From Nitrosomonadales bacterium (GTDB taxonomy: Bacteria; Pseudomonadota; Gammaproteobacteria; Burkholderiales; Gallionellaceae), in assembly GCA_016214695.1 (NCBI GenBank), contig JACRNY010000004.1:310001-374000 (forward strand): a stretch of 64,000 nucleotides of DNA, given 5' to 3'. Positions 54,569 through 60,543 of the stretch are shown piece after piece. A program made the translations under genes and the position numbers. The notes under the pieces were generated by a model. That model ran no database searches and was not told where the DNA came from. It saw nothing but the letters and a program-made list of their open reading frames with translations. The stretch's first letter is position 1. Every line of letters begins with the position of its first letter.

Positions 54569-55861
54569 TTACTTGCCGCGTTTGCCCATCGGCACGAAAT
54601 CGCGCTTGGTCGCGCCGCGATAGAGCTGGCGCGGGCGCCCGATCTTGTGCTCGGCATCGGCGATCATCTCGTTCCACTGCGACACCCAGCCGATGGTGCG
54701 GGCCAGCGCGAAGATCACCGTGAACATGGTGGTGGGGATGCCGATGGCGCGCAGCACGATGCCGGAATAGAAGTCCACGTTCGGATACAGCTTGCGCTCG
54801 ATGAAGTACGGATCGCTCAGGGCGGTCTTCTCCAGCTCCATGGCCAGTTCGAACAGCTTGTTGTTCTCCAGCTTGAGTTCTTTCAGCACCTCGTAGCAGG
54901 TCTCGCGCATCACCTTGGCACGCGGATCCATGTTCTTGTACACGCGGTGGCCGAAACCCATCAGACGGTATTTCTTGTCCTTCACGCCCTGCACGTATTC
55001 CTTCACGCGCGACACGTCGCCGATCTCTTCCAGCATCTTCAGCGCCGCCTCGTTGGCTCCGCCGTGCGCCGGACCCCACAGCGCCGCGATACCCGATGCC
55101 ACACAGGCGAACGGGTTGGCGCCGCTCGATCCGGCCAGACGCACGGTCGAGGTGGAAGCGTTCTGCTCGTGGTCGGCATGCAGGATGAAGATACGCTCCA
55201 GCGCGCGCACCAGCACCGGATTCGGCACATAGTCCTCGGTGGGCGTGCCGAACATCATGTAAAGGAAGTTCTCCACATAGCCGAACTTGTTCTTCGGATA
55301 CATGAACGGTTCGCCGACGTTGTATTTGTAGGCCATCGCGGCCAGCGTCGGCACCTTGGCCAGCAAACGGTGCGCCGAGATCTCGCGGTGGTGCGGATTA
55401 TTGATGTCGAGCGAATCGTGATAGAAAGCCGACAATGCACCGACCACACCGACCATGACTGCCATCGGGTGCGCATCGCGGCGGAAGCCGTTGAAAAAGC
55501 GCGCCAGCTGGTCGTGCACCATGGTGTGCTTGGTGATCAGGGCGCTGAATTCATCCTTCTGCGCCGCAGTCGGCAGCTCGCCGTTCAGCAACAGGTAGCA
55601 CACCTCCAGAAAATCGGACTTCTCCGCCAACTGCTCGATGGGATAGCCGCGGTAATACAGCAGCCCGGCATCGCCGTCTATGAAGGTGATCGCCGAGGTG
55701 CAGCTGGCGGTCGCGAAGAACGCCGGGTCGTAGGTGAACACGCCGAGCTTGTTGAGGGTACGCATATCCACCACATCCGGCCCAAGTGTGCCGGACAGGA
55801 TGGGCAGCTCGATGCTGCGGCCGTCATCCAGGGTCAATGTCGCGATGCGCTGTTTTTCCAT
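54569..55861 (-). CDS. gltA: Citrate synthase (type II)
   Basis: Condenses acetyl-CoA and oxaloacetate. The 430 residues match the hexameric Gram-negative form: [55 protein letters not shown] and [17 protein letters not shown], carrying the catalytic His residues, with the catalytic Asp near VDFYSG. AAGGA precedes the ATG at 55861, which lies 17 bases after the SdhE-encoding frame. Upstream in-frame codons belong to that frame's other reading and are not part of the protein. Confidence 0.98.
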
Positions 55862-55878: not shown

Positions 55879-56478
55879 TCAGGCTGCCTTCAGCCACTCC
55901 AACACCGTACGCAACCCTTCCTGCGTCGGCGCCTCCCGGCCCGTAATCATATCCCACAGCACCGTGTCCGGCATATCCAGCAATGCATCAAAAGCCACCA
56001 GTTGCGCCTCATCGAGGCTCGCATAGCGTTGTTCGACGAAGCGCCCGAGCACGATATCCAGCTCCAGCAGGCCGCGGCGGCAACGCCAACGCACACGTTC
56101 CAGAGACTTTTCCCCTCTCCCCTCGCGGGAGAGGGGCGGGGGAGAGGGGGAGATTTCTTGAAGTATTCTTTCCAAAACTGTTTCCGCCTCTCCAAGTACT
56201 TCATTGTTCCAGAAGCGCAATATCCGAAATCCCTGCCCTTCCAGCCATGCATCCCGCACTTTGTCGGCTTCGCTTTCCAGGTGCTGTCCACCATCCACTT
56301 CGATCACCAGTCTTTTTTCGAATGAGACGAAATCGACGATGTAATCTCCAAGGGGTTGCTGGCGCTTGAACTTCATGCCGCACAAACGATGCCCTCGCAG
56401 GTGATACCAGAGCAACGACTCAGCGTCAGTCATGTTGCGGCGAAGCTGCTTCGCAAAGGCATTTCGGGATGAGCTCAT
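55879..56478 (-). CDS. Chimeric gene: DUF559 endonuclease-like domain fused in frame to SdhE
   Basis: One open frame of 199 residues. The first part (to about residue 110) is a DUF559 protein: [69 protein letters not shown], a PD-(D/E)xK-like nuclease fold. A repeat-encoded linker [16 protein letters not shown] follows. The last 70 residues are SdhE (SDH assembly factor 2), with the RGxxE flavinylation motif in [11 protein letters not shown] and [17 protein letters not shown]. SdhE is normally a separate gene of 80-90 codons in this operon position. The ATG at 56478 follows directly on a repeat that supplies the GGAG ribosome-binding site; an ATG at 56505 is also in frame. Internal CTG or GTG (56094) starts might still give free SdhE. 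Confidence 0.85.
56113..56150 (+). repeat. Palindromic GGGAGAGGG repeat, downstream copy
   Basis: CCCTCTCCCC and GGGAGAGGGG arms around TCGC, followed by a third GGGGGAGAGGGGG block. Inverted relative to the copy at 56479-56515. It is translated as the linker between the DUF559 and SdhE parts. Confidence 0.85.
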
Positions 56479-56515
56479 CCCCCTCTCCCTAGCCCTCTCC
56501 CACAAGGGGAGAGGG
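56479..56515 (-). repeat. Palindromic GGGAGAGGG repeat, upstream copy
   Basis: On the minus strand CCCTCTCCCC and GGGAGAGGG around TTGT, then CTA and GGGAGAGGGGG directly before the ATG at 56478. It begins 8 bases after the sdhB stop and provides the ribosome-binding site of the chimeric gene. Confidence 0.85.
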
Positions 56516-56523
56516 AATTAAAA

Positions 56524-57219
56524 TCATACCGTGCGCTTCACCATCATATCCTTGATCTTGCCGATGGCTTCCGTCGGGTTCAGCTCCTTCGGACACACAT
56601 CCACACAGTTCATGATGGTATGGCAGCGGAACAGGCGGTACGGGTCTTCCAGATTGTCCAGTCGCGCCGCCGTATCCTGGTCGCGCGTGTCGGCGATGAA
56701 GCGGTAGGCCTGCAACAGACCGGACGGGCCGACGAACTTGTCCGGGTTCCACCAGAACGACGGGCAGGCCGTGGTGCAGCAGGCGCACAGGATGCATTCG
56801 TACAGGCCGTCCAGCTCGGCACGGTCCTGCGGCGACTGCAGGCGCTCGGTCTCGGGGGGCGGGTCGTTGTTGACCAGATAGGGCTTGATCGAGTGGTACT
56901 GCTTGAAGAACTGGGTCATGTCCACGATCAGGTCGCGGATGACCGGCAGCCCCGGCAAGGGACGTATCTCGATGGGTTGCTTGAGCGAGGACAGCGCCGT
57001 GATGCAGGCCAGCCCGTTGCGGCCGTTGATGTTCATCGCGTCCGAGCCGCACACGCCCTCGCGGCAGGACTTGCGAAAACCGAGGCTGTCGTCCTGCTGC
57101 CGCAGCAGCATCAGCGCATCCAGCAACATGGCGTCGCCCGCCTGCAGGTCGAGGTCGTAGTCCTGCATGTAGGGCTTGGTGTCCACATCGGGGTTGTAGC
57201 GGTAGATCCGGAACTTCAT
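56524..57219 (-). CDS. sdhB: Succinate dehydrogenase iron-sulfur subunit
   Basis: Carries the [2Fe-2S], [4Fe-4S] and [3Fe-4S] clusters from SdhA to the membrane quinone site. The 231 residues show SCREGVCGSDAMNINGRNGL with the ferredoxin Cys set, CILCACCTTACPSFWW and CHTIMNCVDVCPKELNP. Length matches SdhB. The ATG shares a base with the stop of the preceding GGDEF gene (TGATG), so SdhB translation is coupled to that cyclase rather than directly to SdhA. Confidence 0.98.
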   Translation of the reverse strand: MKFRIYRYNPDVDTKPYMQDYDLDLQAGDAMLLDALMLLRQQDDSLGFRKSCREGVCGSDAMNINGRNGLACITALSSLKQPIEIRPLPGLPVIRDLIVDMTQFFKQYHSIKPYLVNNDPPPETERLQSPQDRAELDGLYECILCACCTTACPSFWWNPDKFVGPSGLLQAYRFIADTRDQDTAARLDNLEDPYRLFRCHTIMNCVDVCPKELNPTEAIGKIKDMMVKRTV

Positions 57220-58432: not shown

Positions 58433-60196
58433 CTAGTACACCCGTGCCTTGAGCGGGAACGATTCCACCGTCAGCGGTTTCAGCCGCACTGGTTTGTAAT
58501 CGAGCCTGCTGCCTTCGCTGAAATACAGCGAATGCTTGAGCCAGTTCTTGTCGTCGCGCTCGGGGAAGTCCTCGCGCGCATGCGCGCCGCGGCTCTCCTT
58601 GCGTGCTTCGGCGGCGACCATGGTCGCCTGCGCCACCTCGATGAGGTTGTCCAGTTCCAGCGCCTCGACGCGCGCGGTGTTGAACACCTTGCTCTTGTCC
58701 TTGATCTCCGTGTGCTTCACGCGTTCGGCCACTTCGCGGATCTTGCTCACGCCCTGCGCCAGCAGGTCGGGGAAACGGAATACACCGCAATGTTGCTGCA
58801 TGGTCTTGCGCATCGCGTCGCCCACTTCGGCCACGCTCTCGCCGTCCTTCTGGTTCTCCAGCCGCGCCAAGCGTGCCAGCGGACGCTCCGCCGCATCGGC
58901 AGGCAGGGGCTTCGGATTCGGGTTGGCTTTCAGGTCTTCGATGATCTGGCGTGCCGCGGCGCGACCGAACACGATGAGGTCAAGCAGCGAGTTGCAACCC
59001 AGGCGGTTGGCACCGTGCACCGACACGCAGGCACACTCGCCCACCGCGTAGAAACCCTGCACCACATCTTCCGGTGCGGTGCGGTGCGGTGCAACGACCT
59101 GACCGTGATAGTTGGTGGGGATACCGCCCATCATATAGTGCGCGGTAGGCACGACAGGGATGGGCGCTTTGGACGGATCGACATGGGCGAACTTGATGGC
59201 GATGTCGCGGATACCTGGCAGGCGATGGCGGATCACCTCGTCGCCGAGGTGGTCGAGCTTGAGCAGCACATGATCGCCGTGCGGGCCGCAGCCGCGCCCT
59301 TCCTTGATCTCGGTCGCCATGGCGCGCGACACCACGTCGCGGCTGGCCAGATCCTTGGCGGTCGGCGCATAGCGCGGCATGAAACGCTCGCCGTCCTTGT
59401 TCACCAGATAGCCGCCTTCGCCGCGCACACCTTCGGTGATCAGCACGCCAGCGCCGTGCACACCGGTCGGGTGGAACTGGAAGAACTCCATGTCTTCGAG
59501 CGGGATGCCCGCGCGCGCAGCCATGCCGAGGCCATCGCCGGTGTTGATGTAGGCATTGGTGCTGGCCGAGAAGATGCGCCCCGCGCCGCCGGTGGCGAAC
59601 AGCGTGGCGCGGGCTTGCAGGATCATCACTTCGGAAGTCTCGATCTCCATCGCCACCACACCCAGCACATCGCCGTCCTCGTCGCGAATCAGATCGAGCG
59701 CTTTCCACTCGATGAAGAAGTTGGTGTTGGCTTTGACGTTCTGCTGGTACAGGGTATGCAACAGCGCATGACCGGTGCGGTCGGCTGCAGCACAGGCGCG
59801 CGGCACCGGGTTCTTGCCGTAGTCCTGCATATGCCCGCCGAAAGGGCGCTGGTAGATCTTGCCGCTGTCGAGCCGGTCGAACGGCATGCCGAAGTGCTCC
59901 AGCTCATACACTACTTCCGGCGCGGCGCGGCACATGTATTCGATGGCATCCTGGTCGCCCAGATAGTCCGAACCCTTCACGGTGTCGTACATATGCCAGT
60001 GCCAGTTGTCCTCGTTGACGTTACCCAGCGAAGCGGCGATACCGCCCTGCGCCGCCACGGTATGCGAACGGGTCGGGAACACCTTCGAAAGCACGGCGAC
60101 CTTGAGTCCCGCCTGCGACAGGGTCAGCGCCGCGCGCATGCCCGCACCGCCCGCACCCACCACCACCACATCGAATGTTCTTTTCGTTATAGCCAT
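58433..60196 (-). CDS. sdhA: Succinate dehydrogenase flavoprotein subunit
   Basis: Oxidises succinate to fumarate with covalently bound FAD. The 587 residues contain the Rossmann start [15 protein letters not shown], the FAD-linking His in [48 protein letters not shown] and the catalytic region [20 protein letters not shown]. It needs SdhE for flavinylation, which in this operon is fused to a DUF559 domain. The ATG shares a base with the sdhD stop (TGATG). Confidence 0.98.
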
Positions 60197-60543
60197 CAGA
60201 GACCCCAAAGGATTTGCACCGACCAGATCGTATAAAGGATCAAGGCCAATATGACCAACACATGGATCAACAGGCGGATGCCCGCCGGCTTCACGTAATC
60301 CATCACGATGTCGCGCACGCCGATCCAGGCGTGATAGAACAGGCTCAGCAAGAACAGCATCGAGAACGTGCGCATCACGTTGCCGGAGAACAGGTAGATC
60401 CAGTTCTCGTAACCGAAGCCGGGTTGCAGCAACAGGTAGACCGCGAGCACCAGCACATAGACTGCCATCACCACCGCGGTGACGCGCTGTGCCAGCCAAT
60501 CGCGCAGACCGTAGTGCGCTCCCGTGACGACGCGGTTCACCAT
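60196..60543 (-). CDS. sdhD: Succinate dehydrogenase membrane anchor SdhD
   Basis: Membrane subunit that with SdhC binds haem b and ubiquinone. The 115 residues have three helices ([57 protein letters not shown]) and the conserved [16 protein letters not shown] with the haem-ligand-type His and the quinone-site Asp-Tyr. The start at 60543 overlaps the sdhC stop by seven bases. Confidence 0.95.

Follow-up and report, generated by a model that had tools for sequence, protein, structure and literature searches.

How does a nuclease gene come to form the N-terminal half of a respiratory assembly factor, and is the product of such a gene one protein or two? The question is raised by a stretch of 64,000 nucleotides from a Nitrosomonadales bacterium of the family Gallionellaceae (hereafter the window), in which a single reading frame between sdhB and gltA joins a DUF559 nuclease-like domain to SdhE. 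A sequence-only reading of the window had described this frame as a selfish-looking gene that has become fused to SdhE inside the TCA operon. Here we examine the frame, its borders and its counterparts elsewhere. G000 denotes the genome of the window itself, and other G and L labels denote genomes and loci of relatives.

Architecture of the fusion

The fusion frame lies on the reverse strand at 55879-56478 (199 aa, with its ATG at 56478 and its stop at 55879); counted from the first TTG, it spans 55879-56505 (208 aa). It is preceded by sdhB (56524-57219, reverse strand), the stop codon of which ends at 56524, and its downstream neighbor is the citrate synthase gene gltA (54569-55861, reverse strand). 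Pfam models recognize two domains in the 208-aa frame: a DUF559 nuclease domain (PF04480; 56152-56466, reverse strand; 1e-41, 141.6 bits against a gathering score of 20.6) bearing VDF...IEVDGGQH, which a Pfam-model search places at G000:C3:366152-366466 in genome numbering, and an SdhE domain (PF03937; 55888-56100, reverse strand; 8.5e-23, 80.5 bits against a gathering score of 27). The RGxxE motif of SdhE can be read directly in the translation as CRRGLLELD (RRGLLE). Both the intact single frame of DUF559, linker and whole SdhE and the presence of RGxxE were therefore as the sequence-only reading had stated. The SdhE part did not reach the equivalog cut-off of the NCBIfam model PRK10878 (35.8 bits against 120), a model that probably describes the enterobacterial SdhE.

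The fusion is the sole SdhE match in the G000 genome (99.97% complete), which contains three more DUF559 matches. The client of SdhE, SdhA, is encoded nearby (58433-60499, reverse strand; frame as given from the first TTG) and retains a motif that we take to be the context of the FAD-linked histidine. Given this retention, a need for SdhE is plausible.

An AlphaFold model of the fusion (mean pLDDT 88.1) comprises two folded domains and a linker with values near 70. The closest solved fold of the DUF559 part is 3hrl (Z 16.1, rmsd 1.0 over 91 residues, 46% identity), which, together with Vsr (1cw0; Z 8.9, rmsd 2.3 over 94 residues), places it in the Vsr/PD-(D/E)XK-like fold; the homing endonuclease I-Bth0305I (3r3p) is also similar (Z 10.7, rmsd 2.4 over 90 residues). 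The SdhE part has the SdhE fold, as judged from 1x6j (Z 10.8, rmsd 1.8 over 79 residues) and 6c12 (also Z 10.8). Z values of this size are unremarkable for a helix bundle, but the sequence match points the same way. A common fold demonstrates no function.

Recurrence in relatives and empty sites

Fusions of the same architecture were found in at least five of the 100 family genomes searched (G000, G020, G102, G062 and G090), falling in four genus groups, with sdhB before and gltA behind wherever the contig reaches. The match in G090 came in two pieces and proved on reading to be one frame. An order-wide sample of 300 genomes, nine listed members of which belong to the family, returned the fusion in one genome, G000 itself, at a threshold of 1e-46, which is strict and would miss a split match like that of G090.

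Comparison of the sdhB-gltA interval in close relatives, which the sequence-only reading had proposed as a check, revealed a stand-alone sdhE in G013 and G027, the sdhB genes of which are 90.3% and 94.5% identical in DNA to that of G000. In both, the ATG of sdhE overlaps the sdhB stop (GTATGA), and overlapping starts occur in other relatives as well. Filled and empty sites in close relatives, a pattern typical of mobile elements, were observed at sdhE and also at hrpA (see below). We found no clear target-site duplication at sdhE, and by eye a possible one (GCGCC/GCCCC) at hrpA.

Four loci with unfused SdhE and no DUF559 (L012, L016, L019 and L027) would have additional N-terminal codons if an upstream ATG were used, and the N-terminal end of SdhE thus looks tolerant. 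The possible extensions in L016 and L019 are long and apparently consist of GGATTC-type repeats.

Border repeats and the linker

The DUF559 gene is bordered by two repeats of the BoxC type, a repeat type also called PIT or TM, the intrastrand-triplex motif (PMC4666352). The 5' copy (56480-56517, reverse strand) consists of the hairpin CCCTCTCCCCTTGTGGGAGAGGG and a third, G-rich stretch, GGGAGAGGGGG, which stands right before the DUF559 ATG and looks like its Shine-Dalgarno sequence. The 3' copy (56112-56150, reverse strand) has the inverted orientation and is translated as the linker. Each border thus consists of a hairpin and an extra C- or G-rich stretch, the two being mutually inverted, and their DNA folding z-scores are -2.1 and -4.7. 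The sequence CCCTCTCCC has seven copies in the window, where 0.39 would be expected by chance, and six of them lie at the two borders of the DUF559 gene, which bears out the earlier proposal of a repeat-derived linker. The C-rich hairpin with a third G-rich stretch that characterizes BoxC/TM repeats is accordingly found at the fusion borders, whereas their intergenic position, as in E. coli, is not, the 3' copy lying within the fusion frame. In its account of the fusion, the sequence-only reading was right about the frame, the motifs and the linker; it missed the inverted BoxC-type borders and the many other hosts.

An Rfam search of the fusion locus at E up to 1 returned merely a sub-threshold plant-virus promoter hairpin on the repeat. 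In L148 and L150, a further palindrome is nested within the BoxC repeat of the fusion locus; in G090, this nested palindrome makes the linker longer without breaking the frame.

Reading on from the nuclease across the 3' hairpin met no stop codon in 31 of 49 cases when the nuclease frame was followed, and in 62 of 104 readings when either of the other two was. We therefore rejected the idea of a repeat built to be open in one frame: all frames are similarly open, the repeat being simply poor in stop codons. Since the 3' repeat is stop-poor in every frame, an open junction is by itself weak evidence.

Association of DUF559 genes with hairpins

The borders are not peculiar to the fusion. Of 60 DUF559 loci from named genome contigs, 59 had a C-rich hairpin no more than about 300 bases away on one side or both, and 45 had one on both sides (loci with less than 300 bases of flank were left out), compared to 21 of 1018 control windows from the same 60 loci. 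The hairpin pattern had a variable loop, as a fixed loop of 4 bases missed the window's own copies. Similar proportions were obtained for the family set, with hairpins on at least one side of 65 of 67 DUF559 loci and on both sides of 46. Because one of the six search patterns (MWERARER) derives from the translated 5' repeat, the 60 loci were possibly picked for having the repeat, and two checks bear on this bias. The nuclease motif ILRFWNNE is present in 59 of the 60 loci, and 58 of these 59 have a hairpin on at least one side. When the Pfam model was the only query, 94 genomes of the class yielded 21 strong matches besides those in G000, and loci were available for 19 of the 21; with two left out (one at a contig end, one with its core not located), hairpins were found on at least one side of all 17 remaining loci and on both sides of 16, against 6 of 77 controls, in slightly wider windows.

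Across the 100 family genomes, which are related to each other, hairpin number followed DUF559 number (Spearman 0.71, and 0.58 after subtracting two hairpins per DUF559 copy), where DUF559 copies are approximated as the listed matches to the fusion query minus one for SdhE. The 33 genomes with no counted DUF559 had a median of one hairpin, and a backward control pattern matched once in each of three genomes, on each strand. There are exceptions, such as G121 with 28 hairpins and no DUF559 counted, and G062 with 153 hairpins and one DUF559.

The association extends to E. coli K-12, where the DUF559 gene ycjD (L145:3203-3761) ends, by eye, in an apparent half BoxC, and a complete BoxC follows some 170 bases later. 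Also behind ycjD in L145 is a decayed second copy of its 3' end, and the locus varies among E. coli genomes: the ycjD query was covered to at least 80% at one place in 3333 of 5426 genomes, and IS1 interrupts ycjD in one strain. We set aside the idea of a clean empty site in E. coli, as the one partial strain examined (R11) has a different gene there; E. coli therefore shows the association with BoxC only.

DUF559 cassettes in other host proteins

DUF559 copies in one frame with a host protein made up 11 of 60 unique copies in the genome-contig set and 25 of 76 in a second genome set, the latter fraction being no rate, since the 76 include copies fetched for their long frames. Hosts were named by Pfam at 19 loci, and the remaining host labels were assigned by eye from likeness to those. 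Ten Pfam-named loci represent HrpA, MeaB, PriA, IleRS, HsdS, PrmC, RimM, RuvC, MmeI and an N6/N4 methylase; further ones represent MetG (three genomes), TrpC, an HsdM-like N6-methylase, a second MmeI-like enzyme, an Eco57I-type methylase and HrpA again, while L099 has a weak HsdM-like match below the family cut-off. Host domains stand on both sides of the nuclease in TrpC, PrmC, PriA, HrpA, MetG and IleRS. A further candidate, DinD in L060, was suggested by eye, had no Pfam support and was left uncounted.

HrpA with an in-frame DUF559 cassette was seen in ten family genomes including G000 (L003, L122, L123, L125, L128, L131, L141 and L181-L183; L003 and L181 by Pfam, the rest by likeness). HrpA is interrupted in G000 and G020 and unbroken in G013, G027, G004, G005 and G017. 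The hrpA gene of G030 (L202/L206) has a different, REP-like palindrome in frame where others have DUF559. In G115 (L184), the IGPS domain of TrpC is split by DUF559 into two Pfam stretches of one frame; TrpC is unbroken across this site in all matching family genomes (56 of 60), G115 being outside that sample. Within the IleRS of a Rickettsiales genome (L059:3077-7525), a DUF559 domain is followed at some distance by a GNAT acetyltransferase domain.

Copies from the same host cluster in the DUF559 tree, with SH-aLRT values of 93 for HrpA, 90 for MetG, 99 for MmeI, 98 for HsdM and 99 for PriA. Strong DUF559 matches also occur in long frames of 713 aa (L267, in G478) and 762 aa (L253, in G439). 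G101 gave 12 matches to the fusion query, and some of its DUF559 copies are nearly identical, suggesting recent multiplication.

Conservation and age of the sdhE cassette

The linkers of the G000, G020 and G102 fusions are equal in length. That of G090 is longer by 20 codons, and G062 is short of 11 codons, spread over three places in its nuclease part and linker. SdhE of G062 and of G090 has gaps of single codons too. Despite these changes in linker length, the frame is open in all five fusions.

Substitution patterns indicate that both domains are under purifying selection. For DUF559, dN/dS (YN00) was 0.085, 0.142 and 0.141 among G000, G020 and G102, and 0.15-0.28 between these three and G090. 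For SdhE, the NG86 estimates of dN/dS for G000 were 0.02 against G013 and 0.14 against G027, both inside the span of unfused pairs, and those for G020 were 0.05-0.12 against its unfused kin G012, G005 and G023. The YN00 values for SdhE were 0.25-0.28 for the G000-G020 pair and 0.04-0.28 between fused and unfused genes, compared to 0.09-0.43 among unfused pairs (of the 36 pairs in all, 6 gave no estimate), and SdhE of G000 and G020 is thus not relaxed relative to unfused relatives. The computable YN00 pairs with G062 or G090, taken by themselves, gave 0.28-0.73, a point against the favored account given below.

Third positions of the G000, G020 and G102 cassettes are only 49-56% identical, and the cassette is therefore old. 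An old cassette with empty sister species implies spread between lineages or repeated precise loss; cassettes of this age, missing from close relatives, are at odds with one simple recent insertion. In the DUF559 tree, one change suffices for the five sdhE-fused copies (SH-aLRT 84-93 at the relevant forks, from few columns), and copies from Formivibrio and Pseudomonas may fall inside the group. KS residues at the junction in four of the five fusions, as seen by eye, hint at a single origin of the sdhE fusions. Judged from these sequences, vertical descent with many losses and horizontal spread appear to fit alike.

One protein or separate SdhE?

We put the chance at about three in four that a cassette settled at the start of sdhE and that the frame is translated as one chain in which SdhE still functions, with the nuclease as a passenger. 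Under this account, the cassette would be a DUF559 gene of the Vsr/homing-endonuclease fold between two inverted BoxC-type hairpins, inserted where the sdhE of relatives begins, directly behind the sdhB stop. It would have replaced the sdhE start codon, leaving the nuclease frame open through the 3' repeat into SdhE. Ribosomes would bind at the G-rich end of the 5' repeat and start at the cassette ATG, yielding a two-domain protein. Its C-terminal SdhE helix bundle, on a flexible linker encoded by the repeat, would still promote covalent attachment of FAD to SdhA, and the nuclease would be carried along and kept intact. The earlier proposal of a selfish-looking gene joined in frame to an intact SdhE is upheld to this extent: the joint is recurrent in relatives and absent from close ones, and both parts are conserved.

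Three other explanations deserve consideration. That an error of sequencing or assembly joined two genes, which the sequence-only reading had named as a possible refutation, is hardly credible: although two of the fusions (L035 and L036) come from metagenome assemblies, the same architecture stands in the same place in five genomes, including two assemblies of different projects, with different linkers and always in frame, and this recurrence in practice refutes a lone artefact. More serious, if still unlikely, is the possibility that mainly a separate short SdhE is made, from a candidate CTG (56101-56103, reverse strand) or GTG (56092-56094, reverse strand) for which ribosomes would bind at the G-rich end of the 3' repeat; the open frame would then be incidental. 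The CTG of G000 lies 8 nt after GAGGGG, as does a TTG in G020, and an ATG stands at SdhE position 4 of G090, such that a separate SdhE could be made in some of the genomes; an open junction, as the other-frame readings indicate, can also arise by chance. Against this, G102 has, by eye, just one ATG, GTG or TTG near the junction, a position-4 TTG that stands about 18 nt away from the G-rich stretch. G062 has lost the 3' repeat, and the 14 codons that precede its conserved block include, by eye, none of the three. The frame is nevertheless kept in both, and it has survived changes of length across the five genomes. With no comparable internal start in G102 and G062, a fusion protein is the simplest account for all five.

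Far less probable than an internal start is a domesticated enzyme whose nuclease and SdhE halves cooperate, for example by tying DNA cleavage to the flavin or respiratory state. The conservation of both halves in several genomes would agree with such a role; however, similar nuclease cassettes sit in many unrelated hosts, unfused relatives manage without the nuclease, and a tolerated passenger explains the data. Of the options left by the sequence-only reading (a working fusion, an internal start or altered flavinylation), the first is thus favored, as the frame is kept and two of the five fusions have no plausible internal start. Translation as one protein with a working SdhE is most likely, and separate SdhE is a possible second product in some fusions.

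A mobile unit?

Insertion of a DUF559/BoxC cassette, of which bacterial genes contain many, best explains how the fusion arose. The idea that these cassettes are moved by their nuclease is a hypothesis to which the fold, the association with hairpins and the empty sites lend support. We tentatively propose, at slightly less than even odds, that DUF559 and its flanking BoxC repeats form one mobile unit moved by the nuclease via homing or transposition, with lone BoxC repeats as non-autonomous remains; since the repeat has few stop codons in any frame, the unit could settle inside essential proteins and add a lasting nuclease domain. SdhE would then be one of at least 12 hosts, and DUF559 would be the missing mobility gene for BoxC repeats.

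We also considered other kinds of element. An intein- or intron-borne homing endonuclease found no support, with no intein domain (Pfam) and no intron (Rfam) around the nuclease gene. A defence system was set aside as well, the sole hit from PADLOC being a weak and partial one to DpdF (0.0032). One study reports that a Caulobacter methylase mutant depends on the DUF559 protein VsrA for its SOS response (PMC12907096), and another that transposase and DUF559 segments were recombination hotspots in experimental evolution (PMC12308824). Within the open-licence PMC literature, queries combining DUF559 with SdhE, palindromic or homing endonuclease, and boxC with ycjD, found no paper on a DUF559-SdhE fusion or a DUF559/BoxC cassette, and none was evident by title among papers on DUF559 generally.

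The fusion is of interest because a nuclease gene has here become one with the gene for an assembly factor of respiratory complex II while both domains have stayed conserved. More generally, it brings together DUF559 nucleases and BoxC/TM repeats, two common families, the first of obscure role and the second of obscure origin. It also suggests a testable route by which housekeeping proteins, among them HrpA, MetG, TrpC and IleRS, could acquire entire domains from selfish DNA.

Comparison with known systems

The repeats share with BoxC/PIT/TM the hairpin, the third G-rich stretch and the sequence type described in PMC4666352. In E. coli K-12, according to that study, the copies are always intergenic and no mobility genes were found nearby, whereas here a nuclease gene lies between the repeats, of which the 3' copy is translated. 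Rickettsia palindromic elements, in-frame palindromic insertions, likewise place repeats in frame inside unrelated host genes; compared by description only, they differ in being about 150 bp long with a conserved peptide, and the available text mentions no nuclease (PMC10969869).

With SdhE/Sdh5/YgfY proteins (PF03937), the fusion has in common the Pfam match, RGxxE, the helix-bundle fold, the site beside sdhB and its status as the only copy found; it differs in that the SdhE part has no ATG of its own and is preceded by 124 additional residues that include the nuclease domain. The nuclease part resembles DUF559/YcjD-type Vsr-like nucleases (PF04480; 3hrl) in its Pfam match and DGGQH core, and other DUF559 loci in having hairpins on both sides, but its C-terminus continues into a housekeeping protein. 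It shares with I-Bth0305I the Vsr-like fold, and cleavage and homing are here predicted at most. In REP/RAYT systems, a nuclease gene is flanked by inverted palindromes that also occur alone, and RAYTs are HUH/Y1 enzymes. The cassette described here has the same layout, a nuclease gene between inverted palindromes that are also found alone, but is built around DUF559 instead of an HUH/Y1 nuclease.
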